Shown here piece by piece: positions 6,989-17,607 of a DNA stretch of 42,089 nt. Position numbers and translations under genes: made by a program. The notes beneath the pieces are model-generated. The model saw only the letters and a program-made list of their open reading frames with translations, had not been told where the DNA came from and ran no database searches. Position 1 is the first letter of the stretch; each line of letters starts with the position of its first letter. This stretch comes from Ignavibacteriota bacterium. GTDB lineage: Bacteria; Bacteroidota; Ignavibacteria; Tepidaquicellales; Tepidaquicellaceae. The stretch lies in assembly GCA_020437545.1 (NCBI GenBank), contig JAGQWH010000012.1, positions 1-42,089 of the forward strand. The letters are read 5' to 3'.

Positions 6989-7552
6989 ATGGCAACAACC
7001 TCAGATCTAAAAACAGGAGTTATTATAAATTATAATAATGATTTACATTCTATTGTATCTGTAGAACACAGAACACCCGGAAATCTAAGAGCATTTTATC
7101 AGGTAAAGATGAAGAATCTTAAAAACGGAAAAATGATCGAAAATCGTTTCCGTTCAGGAGAATCTGTACAGATAGAAAGACTTGATTCAGGAAATTATCA
7201 GTATTTATATAAAGATGGTGATGATTATGTTTTTATGGATAATGAATCATACGAACAGGTAAATATTTCCAATGAGTTTATCGGAAAATCGGGAGATTTT
7301 ATAAAAGAAGGAGAGACAGTTCAGATATTTTTTCATAACGGAAAACCAATGTCGGTAGAAGTACCGCCTCACGTATTCCTTAAAGTAATATCTGCCCCTC
7401 CGGGAGTAAAAGGAGATACTGCAACAAATGCTACAAAAGTTGTTACGCTTGAGACCGGCGCAACTATTAACGCACCGTTATTTATTAATGAAAATGATGT
7501 TTTACGGGTAGATACCAGAACAGGTGATTACATTGAGCGTGCAAAGCAGTAA
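6989..7552 (+). CDS. efp: Translation elongation factor P
   Basis: Binds between the P and E sites of stalled ribosomes and promotes peptide bonds at polyproline stretches. The 187-residue length and three-domain layout are normal: KOW-like N-domain, then two OB domains ending in the [10 protein letters not shown] signature. The tip loop reads [11 protein letters not shown] (28-38). Alignment with the E. coli loop PGKGQAF puts Asn32 where the modified Lys34 normally is, and where EarP-type EF-Ps have Arg. So neither the lysylated/hypusine-like nor the rhamnosylated form is predicted at this position. Arg34 lies two residues further on. It leads an efp-accB-accC cluster, an order seen in many bacteria. 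Confidence 0.97.
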
Positions 7553-7587: not shown

Positions 7588-8082
7588 ATGAAAATGGATT
7601 TAAATTACATAAAAAAGCTTATAAAGATTCTTGATACAAGCAACATTTCTGAAATTGAGATTGAAGAGGAAGGGACAAAATTAAAACTTTCCAAACCAAA
7701 ACCTAAAATTACAGCCGGTTATTCTCCTGTAAATATGGTTCCGGCACAGAATATGGTAACTCAGGATATTATTCAGGCAGGAAATTCTGCTGAATCAGTT
7801 ACAAAAAATGAATCCAAACCTGCCGAACCAAAGAGTGATAATCTTTTTGAAGTCAAATCACCTATGGTAGGTACATTTTACAGATCTCCTTCACCGGATG
7901 CTGATGCTTACGTTAGTGTCGGAAATGACGTTTCTCCCGGTACAGTTTTATGTATTATAGAAGCAATGAAACTCATGAATGAGATTGAATCAGAAATCTC
8001 AGGTAAGATCGTCAAAATACTTGTTGAGAATGCACAGCCTGTAGAATATAATCAGCCGCTATTCTTAATTGAAAAAAATTAA
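7588..8082 (+). CDS. accB: Biotin carboxyl carrier protein of acetyl-CoA carboxylase
   Basis: Carries the carboxybiotin group between the biotin carboxylase and carboxyltransferase parts of acetyl-CoA carboxylase, the first step of fatty-acid synthesis. The 164-residue product has an N-terminal helix region, a flexible linker rich in Ala, Pro, Lys and Asn (about 40-85), and the C-terminal biotinyl domain with [13 protein letters not shown] (91-103) and the biotinylation motif EAMKLMNE with Lys128. A second ATG two codons on is a possible start. It lies 35 bp after efp and 66 bp before accC. The carboxyltransferase subunits are not in the window. Confidence 0.97.
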
Positions 8083-8148: not shown

Positions 8149-9486
8149 ATGATAAAAAAAATACTGATTGCAAACAGAGGTGAAATAGCATTAAGAATAA
8201 TACGAACCTGCAGGGAAATGGGAATAAAAACAGTTGCTGTTTATTCTGATGCGGATAAAGATTCTTTGCATGTAAGATTTGCCGATGAAGCGGTATGTAT
8301 AGGCGGTTCGGTTTCCAAAGAAAGTTATTTAAATATACCCAGAATATTATCAGCTGCTGAGATCACAAATTCAGATTCAATTCATCCGGGTTATGGATTT
8401 CTTGCTGAGAATGCCGATTTTGCTGAGATATGTATAGATTCAAAACTTAATTTCATCGGACCGTTACCTTCAATGATCACATCGATGGGTAATAAATCTT
8501 TTGCTAAAGATACAATGCGTGACGCAGGTGTTCCTGTAGTACCGGGAAGTGACGGTGTTGTTGAAAATCTTGAAGATGCAAAAAAGCTTGCAATGAAGAT
8601 AGGTCTTCCGATCATGATAAAGGCATCTGCCGGCGGTGGCGGAAAGGGTATGAGAATTGTGCGTGAAGAAAGTGAAATAGAAAGCGCTTACTCAAATGCA
8701 AAGGCTGAAGCTTCAAATTCATTTGGGAATGATGATATTTATATTGAAAAGTTTGTAGATAAACCCCGGCATATTGAAATTCAACTGCTCGGAGACAAAC
8801 ATGGGAATATCATAACTTTGGGTGAAAGAGACTGCTCGATACAAAGAAGGCATCAGAAACTAATTGAGGAATCCCCTTCCCCTTTCATTGATGATAAAAT
8901 CAGGGAAGAAATGTGTAATGCGGCTATCCTTGGAGCAAAATCAGTGAATTATCTTGGTGCCGGAACAATAGAATTTTTAGTTGATAAGGATAAGAATTTT
9001 TATTTTATGGAAATGAATACCAGGATACAGGTAGAGCATCCTGTCACAGAGGAGATAACCGAAACTGATCTTATTAAAGAACAGATCCGAATTGCAAATG
9101 GTGAAAAGCTCAGTAAGAAAAAAATTAAATTAAGAGGTCATTCTATTGAATGCAGGATAAATGCTGAAGATCCTGATAATAATTTCAGACCGTCTCCCGG
9201 AATAGTTACAGCATTCAACCAGCCGGGTGGAAACGGTATCAGAGTTGACACACATTGCTATACAGGATATATGATTCCCCCGTTTTATGATTCAATGATC
9301 GGCAAACTTATAACTTATGCTCCTACTAGATATGATGCAATTAGAAAAATGTCACGCGCTCTTGATGAATTTGTAGTAGAAGGTATAAAAACCACTATAC
9401 CATTTCATCAGATGATAATGCAGAATGATAAATTCCTGAATAATGATTACGATACAGGATTTATAGATACATTAAGAAAGGAATGA
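8149..9486 (+). CDS. accC: Acetyl-CoA carboxylase, biotin carboxylase subunit
   Basis: ATP-dependent carboxylation of the biotin on AccB using bicarbonate. The 445-residue product begins with the family signature [20 protein letters not shown]. The ATP-grasp glycine loop is [12 protein letters not shown] (about 159-170), and the catalytic/metal region [16 protein letters not shown] (about 288-303) is intact. The C-terminal domain includes [12 protein letters not shown]. The length is typical of AccC. It lacks any fused biotinyl or carboxyltransferase domain, so it is the stand-alone subunit that works with the upstream accB. Confidence 0.98.
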
Positions 9487-9551: not shown

Positions 9552-10202
9552 ATGAAGAAGTTTAACATATACGTTTTAATTTTAATAATTACAGTTATTT
9601 CATCAGCTGTATATTCCTTTTCTATTGCTCCGAAAGAAACGACTACATCAGCTGATAAAAATAAAACTACATTAGAAAATAAGAAGCAAAGAGATCCTGC
9701 GGATCAGAATACAAACAAAGATCCGGTTAATACTAATAAATCTGATGCATTTGCAGACTCACTAAAAAAGGCTCAGCTGGAAAAACAGAATAATCCGCAG
9801 GAAGGTCTTCAAATTGACACAGCTATCACTAATTCAACTATTCAGACCACAATTCAGCAAGATACTGTTCAAAGACTGGATTCTGCTCTAGTTCAGGAGA
9901 TCTCTGAAAACACAATGACCAATACGAGACTTTTCATATATATACTGTTATCAGTATTAGGTCTTGCGTTATTCTTTTATATTTTTGTCATTACGCTATT
10001 CAAAACTTTTCATAAAAAAAAATCAACCCGCCAGTCGCTTCTTCTTAGCTGGAACTTATTCTTTATTGTAACTCTTATCTGGATTTTCATTATATGGGGA
10101 CTTGTAGCAGGTTTCTGGACTGCAGCTTCATTTATGATCGTTGTGATTTTTCTATTTATAATAAGTTTGATTATGACTATAATTGCTATCAAATCTAAGT
10201 AA
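9552..10202 (+). CDS. Unrecognised membrane protein with disordered linker
   Basis: A 216-residue protein that I cannot place in a family. Residues 4-23 form a signal peptide or first transmembrane helix (YVLILIITVISSAVYSFSI). About 24-125 is a low-complexity stretch rich in Lys, Asn, Thr, Gln and Asp, probably disordered. Three hydrophobic helices follow (about 127-150, 162-184 and 188-213) with the basic loop FHKKKSTRQ between the first two. It is 65 bp after accC, 59 bp before the FabI-like gene and two genes upstream of the tubulin-like gene, all on one strand. A membrane role for that cluster is possible but unproven. Confidence 0.65.
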   Translation: MKKFNIYVLILIITVISSAVYSFSIAPKETTTSADKNKTTLENKKQRDPADQNTNKDPVNTNKSDAFADSLKKAQLEKQNNPQEGLQIDTAITNSTIQTTIQQDTVQRLDSALVQEISENTMTNTRLFIYILLSVLGLALFFYIFVITLFKTFHKKKSTRQSLLLSWNLFFIVTLIWIFIIWGLVAGFWTAASFMIVVIFLFIISLIMTIIAIKSK

Positions 10203-10261: not shown

Positions 10262-11056
10262 ATGAGTAAATATTATGCATTAATTCTCGGAGCTTCCAGT
10301 GGTTTTGGAAAAGCAATTTCACTTGCACTTGCAAAAGACGGTGTAAATATAATCGGTGTTCATTTAGACAGATCTACTACTATGCCGGATGTCGAAAAAC
10401 TGATATCTGATATTAAAGCAACAGGATCAGAAGCTCATTTTTTCAATGTCAATGCAGCCGACCCGAAAAACCGGACGAATGTTATGGATCAGGTTGAAAA
10501 GATATTATCTGAAAATGAAGGCTCAACTATAAAAGTATTTCTTCATTCACTTGCATTCGGAACTTTGAAATTATTCATTGCAGATGATCCTGCCGATGAG
10601 ATCAATCAGAAACAAATAGAAATGACACTCGATGTAATGGCAAACAGTCTTGTTTACTGGACACAGGAAATTGTAAACAGGAAATTAATGATAAGAGGCG
10701 GTAAAATCTATGGTATGACATCTTCAGGCGGACAAAGACAGATTGAATTTTATGGTGCGGTATCTGCTGCTAAAGCATGTATGGAATCATACATAAGACA
10801 GCTTGCAATGGAACTCGGAAGATTTGGTATTTCAGCAAATTCTTTAAGAGCCGGTGTGACAGAAACTCCTGCATTAAGTAAAATCCCAAAAAGCAAAAAT
10901 ATTATTGATAATGCAATACAGAGAAACCCTGTTCACAGACTGACCACTCCGGAAGAAGTAGCATTGTTTGTTGTTGATAATTACAAACAGGATTCGCACT
11001 GGATGACAGGTAATGTCATAAATCTTGATGGTGGTGAAAGTGTAGTTGAATTATAA
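10262..11056 (+). CDS. FabI/FabL-like enoyl-ACP reductase (short-chain dehydrogenase family)
   Basis: A 264-residue Rossmann-fold reductase, probably the enoyl-ACP reductase that completes each cycle of fatty-acid elongation. The nucleotide loop is GASSGFG (10-16), of classical SDR form. The stretch HSLAFG (95-100) resembles the FabI HSIAFA segment. The active site has Tyr164 and Lys171 spaced Y-X6-K, as in FabI and FabL rather than the Y-X3-K of most SDRs. A Ser sits where FabI has its second tyrosine, so it is a divergent type. The downstream accB-accC context supports a lipid role. The alternative is an SDR oxidoreductase acting on another substrate. Confidence 0.75.
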   Translation: MSKYYALILGASSGFGKAISLALAKDGVNIIGVHLDRSTTMPDVEKLISDIKATGSEAHFFNVNAADPKNRTNVMDQVEKILSENEGSTIKVFLHSLAFGTLKLFIADDPADEINQKQIEMTLDVMANSLVYWTQEIVNRKLMIRGGKIYGMTSSGGQRQIEFYGAVSAAKACMESYIRQLAMELGRFGISANSLRAGVTETPALSKIPKSKNIIDNAIQRNPVHRLTTPEEVALFVVDNYKQDSHWMTGNVINLDGGESVVEL

Positions 11057-11122: not shown

Positions 11123-14100
11123 ATGGAAGGTAAAATAATTTTAAGTAACGAAATCGAAGCAGCTGACAGTAATATGATACTGGATATTTCTGCCAAAGAA
11201 AAACTTGAGCTTAAGACTCAGGAATTAATGCCGACTATTTTGATCGGACTTGGCGGAACCGGTAAAGAAGTTTTATTAAGAATCCGTAGACAATTTGTCG
11301 AAAAATACGGCTCAATAAATGACTTCCCCATATTATCATATTTATACATTGATACGGATAATGCGCCTTCAGAAGAAAGCGGTATTGCCAGGGAAAGAGA
11401 TTACCTGATAAATGAGATCGACTTTCAACCTTCAGAAAAAATATTTCATCCCGTAAATCCTTCCGATTACATATACAGAATTCAGGATGTTCCGCACATC
11501 AAAGAATGGCTGAGCACTACCGGTGAGATCGCCAAACTCGGAACAATGAACACCGGCGCGGGGCAGATCAGACCGGCTGCAAGGCTTGCATATTTTCATA
11601 ATTATGATGAGATAGTTGCTAAGCTTACAGCTGCTAAATCAAGGATCACTGATTCGAGATCTATAAACCGTGTAAAAGATATTCATAAGATAAAAAATGT
11701 TAATACAGATAAAATAAATGTTTATGTAATTACATCCGTCAGCGGCGGTACAGGTTCAGGAATGCTTCTGGACATGGGATTTCTTATCAGAAGTATTTTT
11801 AGGAATCAGGCTGTTTCCACATGCTATGTCGTTCTTCCGAAAGTATATCAGGCATACGGTAAGGAAAGAGTTTTTGCAAACGGATATGCTGCTTTGAAGG
11901 AATTTGAATATTACAATTTAAAGAATACATTTGAAGTCTCATGGAAAAAAAACGAACCTCATATTTTTCAGCCGGGTGTATTTGACGATACTTATATTAT
12001 TGACGGTGAAAACTCCAAGAACCTTTCTTTGTCTGATCAGAATAACAGGGATATTTACAAAATGCTTGCCGATACGATATTTCAGGATTTTTCAAATTCG
12101 GATTTTGCAAATTACAAAAGAGGAGTAAGAGTTAATCTTGTTCAGTATAAACAAAGACTCTGGCCGGATGACAATTCCGTTACTGATAATACATATTCAA
12201 GAAAATATTCTACACTTGGGCAGGCTACTATCTCTATACCTGTAGACAGGATCATTATTTCCTGTGCATATAAATTGTGTGAGGATATAATTAATTACTA
12301 TCTTACTTATGCCGAAGGTTCACAGAGCGAAGTTGATAATTATCTTATAAAGGAATTCCTTCCGGAATTAGGACTGCTTGAATCAAAAAATAAATTTCAG
12401 CTTCTTGATTCTCTGTATAAAAGCGGAGAAAAGACTTCGATCCAGTCTAACATTAAGACTTTCCTTACAACACTTCAGAATGATCTTATAAGCGGTAAAC
12501 GCGGAAGCAACTGGTCTTCTTATCTTCTTAATGAAAAAATGAAATTTGATACAAATTTCAAAGATGACAGTGATATTAACCGTCAGGGAATGTATCTTTC
12601 TCAGATATTTTCAAACAGGACAAAGAATATTCAGAATATAATCGGAGACAGAGACAGGAATGTCATCGGTAATCTCGAGAGAAAAATAAATGCACTGGTC
12701 AATGATTCTACAAGAGGAGTATTTTATGCTATTAATCTTCTGAAGCGTTTACAGTTTGTTCTAACAGACGGAAATTTTGATTACATCCCGAAATATGAAA
12801 AGGAGATCAAAGACCTTCAGTCAACTGTTACAAAACTTGATGCTGAATTCAGAAGAAGATTTCAGGAGCTGAAAGAAGACGAATCAAGATCCAAGATAAA
12901 TGTACTCAGAAAATCCGCAATGCAGGGTTCTCTCGAGAAAGTACTCTCTGTGATGGAAGAGTATTATAATGCTCTCATAAAATTAAAATCCAGATACTAT
13001 GCTAGAGAAATAGCTTTGAGAATATTATCATTGATAGAGACAAGAGAAAAGACAGTTAATGACAAAATTCTTTCCACCGGTCTCATCTCAGACCTGAATA
13101 AATTAACCGGTAATCTTGGTGTATTAAAAAATAACTTCCAGAAAAAATATAAATATTTTATTCAGAAGCATGAAACAAGTTTCAACATGATGGTTTATGA
13201 ACCCGATGAAGTCAGCAATGAATATTATGTAAGATATATAGGGACAGGTCAGAAAGCACAGGAGAACATTAAAAACCTTTCGAACAAACTTTTAAAAGAT
13301 CTTGGTGCATCTGATGTTACTGACATAGTGAATATTCTGAGAGAGCGGGATGCGCAGCTCATAGAGAATAAAATGCTGGCATTTGCCAAGAAACAGTTTG
13401 ACGGAATCAGAGAAGATTACAATATTACAGATATTCTTTTTGACAAGGATGCAATAAGAAGCGAATCCAAGATAAGAGGAATGTTTAATCAGGCATTCCC
13501 ATGGCTCCGGACAAGAGAGATCCCGGGAAGTTTCAAACTTGACGAATCTGCTAAAAAATATTATGTAGGTATTAAAACTAATACACCTTCATTCAAAAAA
13601 TTTCAGTCATTGATCCAGTCTATTGCCGGAGCAAATGTCGAGTTTAAAGATTCTGCAGATAACTCTTCAATTACATTTTATTCTGAATGGGCAGGGCTTC
13701 CTTTCTTTTACTCATATACGATTGCAGAGGAAATGAAACCTTATTATAAACAGCTTTCCCAAAACCATAATGTGGATCTGCATATAAATAAGAATCATTT
13801 CATTTATCATGACATTATACCGTTAAATGATGAAGAAAGAGTAAGACTTGATGAAGCATATAAAGCTTATCTTCTCGGACTGATATTTGGAGTGTTTGAT
13901 GTTATTCCTGAGACCGAATCTTCAAAAGCTATTTACAAATATACAAAGCAGGAAGGAATTACCGTTAAGAGAGTTGAACAACTTGGTATTGAATCAAGAT
14001 TAATAAACAGACTTTTTGAAGAACAAGGAAAAGATGCTTTGAGATACCGGATTTTAAAAGATGCAGAAGATATTCAGAATAAGTTTTTTAAAACTAATAA

Positions 14101-14536
14101 ACTTGCTGAAATGCTTTCTATTTATGAATATTATTATGACGAAATCTATAAGCCGACTGAATTTGAGATCTCAGGTGATGCGAAAAGGAAAGTTGAGACT
14201 TATCAATATAAAATTTTAAGAAACCTTTCTAAAGAAATTGAAGACAAGATCAGTTTAAATGAAAAAGCCGGGTTTACTTCTAAAGTAATTAATTATAAGC
14301 ATAATCCTGATGAAATATCAAAGCTTATCGGTGACGGGATGAAGAGAGTCCTAAAAGTAGAAGAAATACTTTCTGATTCTGATGAACCCGCAGATGAAAC
14401 TTTTGATATGCCGCAAATTAAAAATAATGTCAAAGTCTCAAAATCCAAACTAAAGGAATACAAAGAAGCACTGGATGAAGGACTTATTTCACAGGAAGAA
14501 TATGATAAAGCAAAAAAAGAATTTTTAAATATATAA
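11123..14536 (+). CDS. Large tubulin/FtsZ-like protein with C-terminal SHOCT-like segment
   Basis: An 1137-residue protein whose first ~270 residues carry the nucleotide-binding loops of the tubulin/FtsZ superfamily: LIGLGGTGKEVLLRI (40-54), NTGAGQIRPAARLA (143-156) and the G-box SVSGGTGSGM (205-214), equivalent to the GGGTGTG signature. This resembles the Pfam Tubulin_2 group. About 470-700 is helical and charged, with probable coiled coil (for example YEKEIKDLQSTVTKLDAEF). The last ~31 residues, LKEYKEALDEGLISQEEYD and onward, look like a SHOCT oligomerisation hairpin. There is no signal peptide or clear membrane helix. A zinc-ribbon gene starts 3 bp after its stop. GTP binding and polymerisation are inference; the cellular role is unknown. 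Confidence 0.8.
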   Translation: MEGKIILSNEIEAADSNMILDISAKEKLELKTQELMPTILIGLGGTGKEVLLRIRRQFVEKYGSINDFPILSYLYIDTDNAPSEESGIARERDYLINEIDFQPSEKIFHPVNPSDYIYRIQDVPHIKEWLSTTGEIAKLGTMNTGAGQIRPAARLAYFHNYDEIVAKLTAAKSRITDSRSINRVKDIHKIKNVNTDKINVYVITSVSGGTGSGMLLDMGFLIRSIFRNQAVSTCYVVLPKVYQAYGKERVFANGYAALKEFEYYNLKNTFEVSWKKNEPHIFQPGVFDDTYIIDGENSKNLSLSDQNNRDIYKMLADTIFQDFSNSDFANYKRGVRVNLVQYKQRLWPDDNSVTDNTYSRKYSTLGQATISIPVDRIIISCAYKLCEDIINYYLTYAEGSQSEVDNYLIKEFLPELGLLESKNKFQLLDSLYKSGEKTSIQSNIKTFLTTLQNDLISGKRGSNWSSYLLNEKMKFDTNFKDDSDINRQGMYLSQIFSNRTKNIQNIIGDRDRNVIGNLERKINALVNDSTRGVFYAINLLKRLQFVLTDGNFDYIPKYEKEIKDLQSTVTKLDAEFRRRFQELKEDESRSKINVLRKSAMQGSLEKVLSVMEEYYNALIKLKSRYYAREIALRILSLIETREKTVNDKILSTGLISDLNKLTGNLGVLKNNFQKKYKYFIQKHETSFNMMVYEPDEVSNEYYVRYIGTGQKAQENIKNLSNKLLKDLGASDVTDIVNILRERDAQLIENKMLAFAKKQFDGIREDYNITDILFDKDAIRSESKIRGMFNQAFPWLRTREIPGSFKLDESAKKYYVGIKTNTPSFKKFQSLIQSIAGANVEFKDSADNSSITFYSEWAGLPFFYSYTIAEEMKPYYKQLSQNHNVDLHINKNHFIYHDIIPLNDEERVRLDEAYKAYLLGLIFGVFDVIPETESSKAIYKYTKQEGITVKRVEQLGIESRLINRLFEEQGKDALRYRILKDAEDIQNKFFKTNKLAEMLSIYEYYYDEIYKPTEFEISGDAKRKVETYQYKILRNLSKEIEDKISLNEKAGFTSKVINYKHNPDEISKLIGDGMKRVLKVEEILSDSDEPADETFDMPQIKNNVKVSKSKLKEYKEALDEGLISQEEYDKAKKEFLNI

Positions 14537-14539
14537 TTA

Positions 14540-14923
14540 ATGCCGACATACGAATATAAATGCGATAACTGCGATCATCTCTTCGAAATTTATCAGTCGA
14601 TGAAGGATGATAAATTAACCAAATGTCCGGAATGCGGAAAGAAAACACTGAGAAGATTAATAGGTACCGGAGGCGGATTGATATTTAAAGGGAGCGGATT
14701 TTATTTAACTGATTATAAGAATAAACCTTCAGAGAAGACTGCTTCTTCACCTGCATCAGCAAACTCTGAAACAAAAGGAACAGGATCTTCCGAAACCGGC
14801 AAAAAAGAAACTACAGGTAAAGAAGATAAAAAATCTGTTAAAACAGATTCAGTAAATACAAATTCTGATACTTCAACGAAAAAAAACAGTTCTAAAGATA
14901 CTAATGTAAAATCGGATAAATAA
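14540..14923 (+). CDS. FmdB-family zinc-ribbon protein
   Basis: A 127-residue protein with an N-terminal FmdB-type zinc ribbon: MPTYEYKCDNCDHLFE with Cys8 and Cys11, then KCPECGK with Cys29 and Cys32. The conserved glycine-rich end of the domain follows (GGGLIFKGSGFYLTDY, about 49-64). The rest (about 65-127) is a low-complexity tail of Ser, Thr, Lys, Asp and Asn. The domain is common and small, and usually lies beside translation or metabolic genes; no activity is established. The 3-bp spacing to the tubulin-like gene implies translational coupling. It converges on lptB with 4 bp between the stops. Confidence 0.88.
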   Translation: MPTYEYKCDNCDHLFEIYQSMKDDKLTKCPECGKKTLRRLIGTGGGLIFKGSGFYLTDYKNKPSEKTASSPASANSETKGTGSSETGKKETTGKEDKKSVKTDSVNTNSDTSTKKNSSKDTNVKSDK

Positions 14924-14927
14924 TTGA

Positions 14928-15677
14928 TCACTGCTGATCTTTTAGTAAATATCTGTCAAGATTGAAATTCTGTCCAAGATAGAATTTTTTTACCATTTCA
15001 TCATTAGCAAGTTCCTGAGCATTTCCCGATCTGAATATTTTACCGTCAATAAGTATATAAGCCCGGTCAACTATAGATAAAGTTTCATGCACATTATGGT
15101 CAGTGATAAGAATTCCGATTCCCCTTTTTTTAAGAGTACCGATTATTTTCATGATCTCTTCTGAAGCAATAGGGTCGATCCCGGCAAATGGTTCATCAAG
15201 CAGAATAAACTTTGGATCTGAAGCAAGACATCTTGCAATTTCGGTTCTTCTCCTTTCACCACCCGATAAAACATAGCCATAAGAATCTCTTAATTTATCA
15301 ATATGAAATTCCTTCATTAGACTTTCACATTTCTCTTCCATTTCATTTTTATCAAGTTTCATGAACTGTAATATTGACAGGATATTTTCTCTTACAGTTA
15401 ATTTTCTGAAGACAGAAGCTTCCTGTGGTAAATAGCCTATCCCGATCCTTGCTCTTTTGTACATAGGCAGTTTTGTTATATCCTCTTTTTCAAATTCAAT
15501 TTCACCTTCATCAGGTTTTATCATTCCTGTGATCATGTAAAAGGTAGTTGTCTTACCGGCTCCGTTGGGACCCAGCAGACCAACTATTTCACCTTGCTTT
15601 AACTTGAGTGAAACATTATTGACTACTGCCCTTTTCTTATAAATCTTTACTAATCCTGTTACTTTCAGTTCGATCAA
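14928..15677 (-). CDS. lptB: Lipopolysaccharide export ABC ATPase LptB
   Basis: The cytoplasmic ATPase of the LptB2FG transporter that extracts LPS from the inner membrane. The 249-residue product has Walker A GPNGAGKT (36-43), Q-loop [14 protein letters not shown] (82-95), ABC signature LSGGE (137-141), Walker B FILLDEP (157-163) and the switch His194 in ITDHNVHE. The LPQEAS and FAGIDP motifs are characteristic of LptB rather than other small ABC ATPases. The start is TTG, with an in-frame stop a little upstream. It follows pdxJ by 10 bp on the same strand. LptF, LptG, LptC and LptA are not in the window. Confidence 0.95.
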
Positions 15678-15687
15678 TTTACTAATT

Positions 15688-16407
15688 TTATTTTTTAAGA
15701 TTTAAAAGATCGAGCATATCTTTTACTGCCCTTTCAAGTCCTGTAAAAACTGCTCTCGATATTATTGAGTGACCGATACTAATTTCACTGATCTCTGATA
15801 TAGCTGCAACCGGCAGAACATTCTGATAATTTAATCCATGTCCTGCTGTCACTATCATTCCAAGCTCTGAAGCTAATCTTGAAGTAACCGCTATTTTGCT
15901 TAATTCAGTCAGAATCTCTTTTTCAGATCTGACATTGGCATACTTACCTGTATGAATTTCTATGATATCAGCTTTTATTTCAAATGCCATATCTACACTG
16001 GCAGGATCAGGATCAATAAACAGACTGACAAGAATATCTTTGGAATGCAGTTCAGATATTATATTTTCAAATCTGCTTTTATCAGCTAAAATATTCAATC
16101 CGCCTTCTGTCGTAAGCTCCTGTCTTTTTTCAGGAACAAGCGTTACAATTTCCGGAAGAGTATCTATGGCAATTTTCAGCATTTCATCAGTCGCGGCCAT
16201 TTCAAGATCAAGTTTGGTTTTAACGACCTCTCTTATTAATTTCAGATCCCTGTCATTTATATGTCTTCTGTCTTCCCTTAAATGACAAACTATACCGGCA
16301 GCACCTGCTAATTCACAAATCCCTGCCGCTATCACAGGATCAGGTTCGTTCTCCCCGCGCGCTTCACGGATTGTGGCAACATGATCTATATTTATTGCAA
16401 GTTTCAT
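15688..16407 (-). CDS. pdxJ: Pyridoxine 5'-phosphate synthase
   Basis: Condenses 1-deoxy-xylulose 5-phosphate with 3-amino-2-oxopropyl phosphate to make pyridoxine 5'-phosphate in the DXP-dependent vitamin B6 pathway. The 239-residue TIM barrel shows the N-terminal [16 protein letters not shown] (3-18), [13 protein letters not shown] (38-50), the LEMAATDEM stretch (about 72-80) and the C-terminal [18 protein letters not shown] segment that holds the substrate-binding His. The length is normal. It is the first gene of a pdxJ-lptB pair spaced by 10 bp. Confidence 0.97.
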
Positions 16408-16505
16408 TTTTGATTTTTTTTATTTTACCAGTAAAAATATATAACGAAAATTTATCTAAAAATACTTATTTAAATCTGAAATTAAAAAGTAAAGTCAGAT
16501 AATTA

Positions 16506-16535
16506 AAAAGGTAATCAAAGAATTGATTACCTTTT
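16506..16535 (-). terminator. Intrinsic terminator after the PorV-family gene
   Basis: AAAAGGTAATCAA pairs perfectly with TTGATTACCTTTT around AGAA. On the - strand the T run follows the stem. It lies 38 bp beyond the stop of the PorV-family gene and insulates pdxJ-lptB from it. Confidence 0.75.
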
Positions 16536-16572
16536 ATAATTTAACTTATTTTGATTATTACTTTAATTGCAA

Positions 16573-17607
16573 TTAGAATCCTAAAGTAACCGTAAAGTGC
16601 TGATTGTTATCAAAGAAAGATTCAGATCCTTTGTAAGCATAATCAAATCCGATATTCATTGATCCGGCATTGTAGTTAAGACCTGCACCGAATGTTAAAC
16701 CGGTAAAGGCTCTGTCACTTGTATTGTCCTGATCAGTGAACTGATATCCACCTCTGATGTAAACAATTTTATTGTAGTTGTATTCTGCACCAAGGTTATA
16801 ATCATCAGATGAAAAACTGTTTGCCTGATATGTTCCGTTAAGCATGACATTGTTTTTCTTGTCTAATCTGAAATCATAACTTAATCCTAAAGAGAATGAA
16901 GTTGGTAATTCAAAATCCTCAAGAATAATGCTTCTTGGCTCAAGATTCTGTCCCGGAGCTGAACCCGATGGCGGGTAGAATGATTCAAGGTCTGCACCGG
17001 TAAAAGCCATAGCAGGTCCAAGATTCAAAAGAGCAACTCCGAATTGTAATCCGGATCCTATAACGTTATACTGTAAACCGAAATCAAAGGCTACACCTTT
17101 TGCTGATTCCCGGCTTATTTCTTCATAGAGGACTTTCAGAGTTGTTCCGAAAGCGATCCTGTCTGTCATATTCCTTCCATAGGATAATCCGATGGTAAGA
17201 TATGTCGGTGAAAATGTCTCACCTGTTCCGTCAGGACTGTTTGTTGTAGTTACTTCAATATCTCCAAAGCTCATTGCTTTTACTGAGATACCGAATGTTC
17301 CTACGTTTGGTAATTTATAAGCACCTGCAAAATAATTAAGATCTATATCTGCAATGTACTTTTGATTGGAGAACATTACTTCTCCAGTTTTTGTGCTTAA
17401 ATATGATAGCCCTGCAGGATTCCAGTAGATAGCATCCAGACCTGTGGTTGTTGCTAGGTTAGACCCACCCATGGAAGTTCCTATAGAACCTACCGGAATA
17501 AGTAATTCCGCAGCAGATGACAGACCTATTTTATTTTTAGGACCGGCAACCAGGCAATTACTTATAAGGGTTATTGTTAGAAATATTGTAAAAACTATTT
17601 TTTTCAT
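16573..17607 (-). CDS. PorV/PorQ-family outer-membrane beta-barrel protein
   Basis: A 344-residue exported protein with a signal peptide (MKKIVFTIFLTITLISNCLV). The family signature SAAELLIPVGSIGTSMGG and LDAIYWNPAGLSYL (about residues 31-66) follows, as seen in PorV, PorQ and UPF0164/FadL-like barrels. The remainder is alternating beta strands and turns, ending in HFTVTLGF with the aromatic last residue expected of an outer-membrane barrel. PorV is the shuttle and acceptor protein of the type IX secretion system, but many paralogues exist, so a specific T9SS role is not shown. It is the last gene of a run with the 1088-residue protein and the TonB receptor. Shine-Dalgarno AAGGAG precedes the ATG. 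Confidence 0.88.
   Translation of the reverse strand: MKKIVFTIFLTITLISNCLVAGPKNKIGLSSAAELLIPVGSIGTSMGGSNLATTTGLDAIYWNPAGLSYLSTKTGEVMFSNQKYIADIDLNYFAGAYKLPNVGTFGISVKAMSFGDIEVTTTNSPDGTGETFSPTYLTIGLSYGRNMTDRIAFGTTLKVLYEEISRESAKGVAFDFGLQYNVIGSGLQFGVALLNLGPAMAFTGADLESFYPPSGSAPGQNLEPRSIILEDFELPTSFSLGLSYDFRLDKKNNVMLNGTYQANSFSSDDYNLGAEYNYNKIVYIRGGYQFTDQDNTSDRAFTGLTFGAGLNYNAGSMNIGFDYAYKGSESFFDNNQHFTVTLGF

Follow-up and report, generated by a model that had tools for sequence, protein, structure and literature searches.

The FtsZl1 family was described by Makarova and Koonin (2010) as proteins with an FtsZ-like domain, a coiled coil and a helical end (PMC2875224), and it has been equated with the Pfam family PF13809, Tubulin_2 (PMC9871819). 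FtsZl1 proteins are typically found together with a canonical FtsZ in the same genome, and in the majority of contexts their operons encode a vWA protein and often a GTPase, a kinase or OmpA (PMC2875224). The published function, membrane remodelling, is a prediction from genome context; the T6-H7 region could not be confidently identified by those authors, who allowed for FtsZl1 filaments built through some new mechanism and, as the less likely case, for no filaments (PMC2875224). The proteobacterial FtsZl2 proteins are without the coiled coil and have an alpha/beta C-terminal region of ~300 aa (PMC2875224). No experiments on any FtsZl1/Tubulin_2 protein were found in the literature searched. 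Plasmid-borne relatives are annotated as 'tubulin-like doman-containing protein'; on plasmid pTHEOS01 of Thermus oshimai (L049), a vWA gene overlaps the beginning of Tubulin_2, upstream lies a gene for a TROVE-domain protein, and brxL is found downstream.

The window analysed in this work (the whole stretch of 42,089 nucleotides, from an Ignavibacteriota bacterium, genome G000) carries an intact ORF for a 1137-aa protein (P0001; positions 11123-14536, plus strand) that is assigned by its Pfam match to the known FtsZl1/Tubulin_2 family. PF13809 aligns with residues 39-390, the nucleotide-binding domain (11237-12292), over profile positions 1-355 of 356, with an E-value of 1.4e-70 and 238.8 bits (cut-off 27). 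An earlier note on this DNA had regarded the protein as an orphan that, apart from its loops, a helical middle and a SHOCT-like end, matched nothing recognisable over about 850 residues and would be new. The Pfam match rejects an orphan family, the similarity to a protein of Azospirillum sp. TSA2s plasmid p2 (WP_136701486.1) extends over P0001 residues 33-925 (24% identity, E 1e-53) and so covers most of those 850 or so residues, and the family had already been described in 2010 (PMC2875224). Assignment to FtsZl2 was also rejected on the length of 1137 aa, the full-profile PF13809 match and the long-range similarity to FtsZl1-type proteins.

The glycine loops that the same note had placed at residues 42, 143 and 207 were confirmed at these positions: the T1 loop GLGGTGKE (residues 42-49; 11246-11269), the T3-like loop NTGAGQIRP (residues 143-151; 11549-11575) and the T4 signature loop SGGTGSGM (residues 207-214; 11741-11764), all on the plus strand. 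Among 20,000 shuffles of the protein sequence with the same composition, a T1-like loop appeared five times, a T4-like loop 0 times and the two together 0 times. In the family-level lineage of the window genome (f1; 29 genomes compared), the T1, T3 and T4 loops of the orthologues are conserved at 98-100% identity, the T4 signature being invariant, and GLGGTG and SGGTGSG are present in every full-length orthologue compared. Loss of the loops in orthologues, which had been raised as a point against the reading, was not seen in f1, and the three loops are largely preserved (GAGQIR included) in G115, a relative from another class of the same phylum that aligns end to end with P0001 at 24% identity. 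The Pfam match and these loops together support the earlier placement in the tubulin/FtsZ superfamily. The apparent break in the G021 gene is a scaffold run of N, and its reading as a pseudogene was rejected.

Next, we compared the nucleotide domain with FtsZ. A profile of 15 FtsZ proteins of the class gave a weak match (E 0.013), and five unrelated families, drawn as a control from these same loci, scored E 0.098-0.99 against the FtsZ profile. The low-stringency profile alignment brings T1, T2, T3 and T4 into the same order as in FtsZ, with the T1 loop on FtsZ T1, IDTDNAP on the T2 region NTDTQAL, the T3-like loop on RGLGTG and the T4 loop on GGGTGTG; it did not resolve T6 to T7. The canonical FtsZ of the same genome, which shares this order, is a 420-aa protein with the single FtsZ_C match (G000:C222), follows an apparent FtsA gene on a different contig, and has no detectable C-terminal similarity to P0001. 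Pfam found no FtsZ_C domain in P0001, and no conserved T7 synergy-loop motif (NxDxxD) was found in its nucleotide domain, in agreement with PMC2875224. The view that the protein is not FtsZ and stands outside any division cluster is borne out by these results. A PDB sequence search returned no FtsZ and no tubulin. AlphaFold models of the full-length protein and of residues 31-400 reached pLDDT values of 32.7 and 35.9, respectively, because the input sequences were too alike (alignment rows 81-98% identical), and a Foldseek search with the domain model, itself of low confidence, found no significant match (no hit below E 0.16), tubulins appearing only among chance matches (E >=0.55). The tubulin-type fold is therefore a prediction from sequence.

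Residues 401-1070 (12323-14332, plus strand), the helical middle and C-terminal region, are conserved lineage-wide, have no transmembrane segment and may contain the coiled coil that the earlier note had proposed; their helices are predicted by the low-confidence AlphaFold model only. At the end of the protein, a probable SHOCT domain (PF09851; residues 1109-1134; 14447-14524, plus strand) scores E 8.7e-5 and 22.6 bits in the window protein, below the Pfam cut-off of 27, and is detected at E <= 0.01 in all 17 full-length f1 orthologues, which favours the SHOCT-like end suggested earlier. G115 has GYF_2 where the f1 orthologues have SHOCT, and the tail of the Azospirillum protein also aligns with this GYF_2 end, not with SHOCT. 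The neighbours of these two relatives also differ from those in f1: OmpA, DUF4384 and caspase-family genes in Azospirillum, and in G115, next to its Tubulin_2 (L046:9035-12658), genes for a TPR protein and for two proteins of ~500 aa that match no Pfam family. Initial experiments on SHOCT gave no support for self-oligomerisation, and binding or localisation roles have been proposed (PMC3581485). We infer that the SHOCT/GYF_2 tail may be an exchangeable docking module.

Tubulin_2 is a single-copy gene in f1 and is present in 23 of its 29 genomes. It was found in 0 of the 15 genomes examined from a second family of the same order. In a phylum-wide sample of 198 genomes, 3 have a match above the Pfam cut-off, and two of the three belong to f1. 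Public contigs near-identical to the window are titled Ignavibacteria. No relatives were found among viral contigs and phages. For Tubulin_2, the dN/dS of the closest species pair is 0.014, compared with 0.015 for EF-P, 0.009 for AccC and 0.018 for LptB, and we concluded that Tubulin_2 is under purifying selection of the same strength as EF-P and AccC. The Tubulin_2 tree broadly matches the tree of neighbouring genes, which indicates mostly vertical inheritance within f1. One long branch, that of G017 (L043), measures 0.92 versus 0.23 for the housekeeping neighbours; its sister genomes G024 and G025 are without Tubulin_2, and relaxed constraint before loss is possible. In G003 and G015, there was no match to the SDR or LptB of the conserved run at the thresholds used, and AccC was only distant; the whole gene run may be absent or diverged in these two. 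The missing Tubulin_2 of G026 is not counted as a loss, the contig ending at the site in an assembly gap.

The gene occupies an operon-like position in a run of plus-strand genes that starts with elongation factor P (6989-7552) and continues with the biotin carboxyl carrier protein AccB (7588-8082), the biotin carboxylase AccC (8149-9486), a lineage-specific membrane protein that we call TM216 (9552-10202), a FabL/FabI-like enoyl-ACP reductase of the SDR type (10262-11056), Tubulin_2, and an FmdB-family zinc ribbon protein (14540-14923; TIGR02605, E 1.4e-20) that begins 3 bases past the Tubulin_2 stop codon. LptB (14928-15677, minus strand; TIGR04406, E 1.2e-110) is convergent and bounds the run, nearly always together with PdxJ. 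The lipid-synthesis and translation neighbourhood reported from the window is therefore correct, and the run proved to be fixed among orthologues: its order is conserved in 17 of 18 assembled loci spanning both sides of Tubulin_2, in some carriers another gene has been inserted after SDR and before Tubulin_2, and the distance from the Tubulin_2 stop to the FmdB start is -1 to 39 bases in 19 of 20 loci. A promoter and terminator scan was uninformative, the sites being no commoner than in shuffles. In G020 (L039, L086; C16:51883-71336), some 15 kb of other genes separate Tubulin_2 (C16:51883) from the side of SDR and TM216 (C16:70887), both TM216 and Tubulin_2 being retained. Further downstream (16407-17607), PdxJ in the window is followed directly by a PorV-like gene; most relatives (L028-L045) have a block of about three genes, for proteins of some 455, 307 and 254 aa, between the two, so that this block has been moved or lost here.

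The locus thus resembles described FtsZl1 systems in the FtsZ-like domain at the N-terminus, whose nucleotide loops are conserved, the large C-terminal extension and the canonical FtsZ alongside. It differs from them in that Pfam found no vWA protein, P-loop GTPase, protein kinase or OmpA among the window neighbours, where a fixed housekeeping run stands instead, and in the near-general presence in one lineage, the SHOCT tail and the lineage-specific TM216. In TM216, a variable linker joins a hydrophobic segment at the N-terminus to three TM helices at the C-terminus, arranged around a conserved basic loop (the HKK.STRQS region); TM216 matched no Pfam family and has three to four TM segments versus 0 in the Tubulin_2 protein. 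Across the 29 f1 genomes, both genes are present in 22, neither in 5, and the two mismatches (G019 without TM216 and G026 without Tubulin_2) have contig breaks at the site; the absence of TM216 from G019, at a contig end, is likewise not counted as a loss. Fisher's exact test gave 1e-5 when the two gapped genomes were left out and 3e-4 when they were counted, values that are not true probabilities, given the relatedness of the genomes and the linkage of adjacent genes. In G016 and in G024/G025, TM216 and Tubulin_2 are both absent while the intervening SDR is retained, and as G017, the sister of G024/G025, has both genes, two separate losses are suggested. The remaining double absences are less informative, G003 being 77% complete and both G003 and G015 being without the SDR and LptB matches. 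Outside f1, no TM216 was found in the phylum sample of 198 genomes, and this sample includes the Tubulin_2 carrier G115, which counts against the pairing. TM216, which is linked to Tubulin_2 by co-occurrence and gene order, with perhaps two independent losses, is probably its partner or anchor.

The best explanation, which we hold tentatively and at somewhat short of an even chance, is a branch of FtsZl1, specific to the lineage and inherited vertically, that forms a nucleotide-binding polymer or scaffold, tethered via TM216, with a role at the envelope. The N-terminal tubulin-type domain would bind guanine nucleotide, possibly with GTPase activity, and would assemble the long helical protein into a cytoplasmic polymer or large scaffold, in keeping with the earlier suggestion of a large scaffold protein. 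TM216 would anchor the Tubulin_2 protein, which is without a TM segment of its own, to the inner membrane, and the SHOCT tail would dock a further partner. The job would be organisation or remodelling of the envelope and probably not cell division, because a normal FtsZ is present. Against this explanation stand the low confidence of both structure models, the weak FtsZ profile match and a link between TM216 and Tubulin_2 that comes only from co-occurrence and gene order.

The absence of the T7 motif makes GTP-driven polymerisation by the FtsZ route doubtful, and for the same reason the strongest rival is a static scaffold or switch that binds GTP and forms no FtsZ-like filaments, its helical body and SHOCT tail building a complex with TM216 and others. 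This is possible, on the unlikely side, and it draws further on the T6-H7 region that was not confidently identified in FtsZl1, with a non-filament option allowed as the less likely one (PMC2875224). Against it stand the full conservation of T1, T3 and T4 and the chance that T7 may be unrecognisable at such divergence, in which case a missing motif is weak evidence.

We consider it improbable that the protein is an accessory of fatty-acid synthesis or lipid export, that is, a scaffold that would physically organise, at the membrane, either the acetyl-CoA carboxylase with the enoyl reductase or LptB. Such a role would fit the position of Tubulin_2, which almost all carriers keep fixed between AccC/SDR and LptB, and a plausible co-transcription; however, G016, G024 and G025 have AccC, SDR, FmdB and LptB without Tubulin_2, G020 keeps TM216 and Tubulin_2 with the two halves of its run far apart, and the genes around it may form nothing more than a housekeeping operon. 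A cytoskeleton for cell shape, acting with MreB or replacing it, is suggested by the tubulin superfamily and by presence in most but not all f1 members, and it is very improbable: MreB-family matches occur in 29 of 29 genomes irrespective of Tubulin_2, which also rejects MreB as a trait co-varying with Tubulin_2. Least probable of all is a conflict or signalling component, as for the plasmid FtsZl1 genes adjoining caspase-like or BREX genes (the Azospirillum member beside OmpA and caspase-family genes, the Thermus member next to a vWA gene and near genes for TROVE and BrxL), since in f1 the gene is a single copy in a conserved housekeeping run, mostly vertical, with the low dN/dS given above and no match to PADLOC defence-system models.

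A bolder form of the tethered-polymer explanation, which we regard as unlikely, is a third housekeeping cytoskeleton beside FtsZ and MreB: an FtsZl1-type polymer that lacks T7, assembles by a new mechanism, is anchored by the previously undescribed TM216 and constitutes a minimal, two-gene machinery for membrane remodelling. What is new is the lineage-wide presence, the fixed run, the housekeeping constraint without the usual FtsZl1 neighbours, the pairing with TM216 and the SHOCT tail; no two-gene housekeeping form with TM216 was found in the literature searched, and this form is the part worth following. In it, a single co-inherited membrane protein takes the place of the changing multi-gene FtsZl1 cassette. 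The question of FtsZl1 function is thereby narrowed to a two-protein system, open to expression and imaging in a laboratory host.
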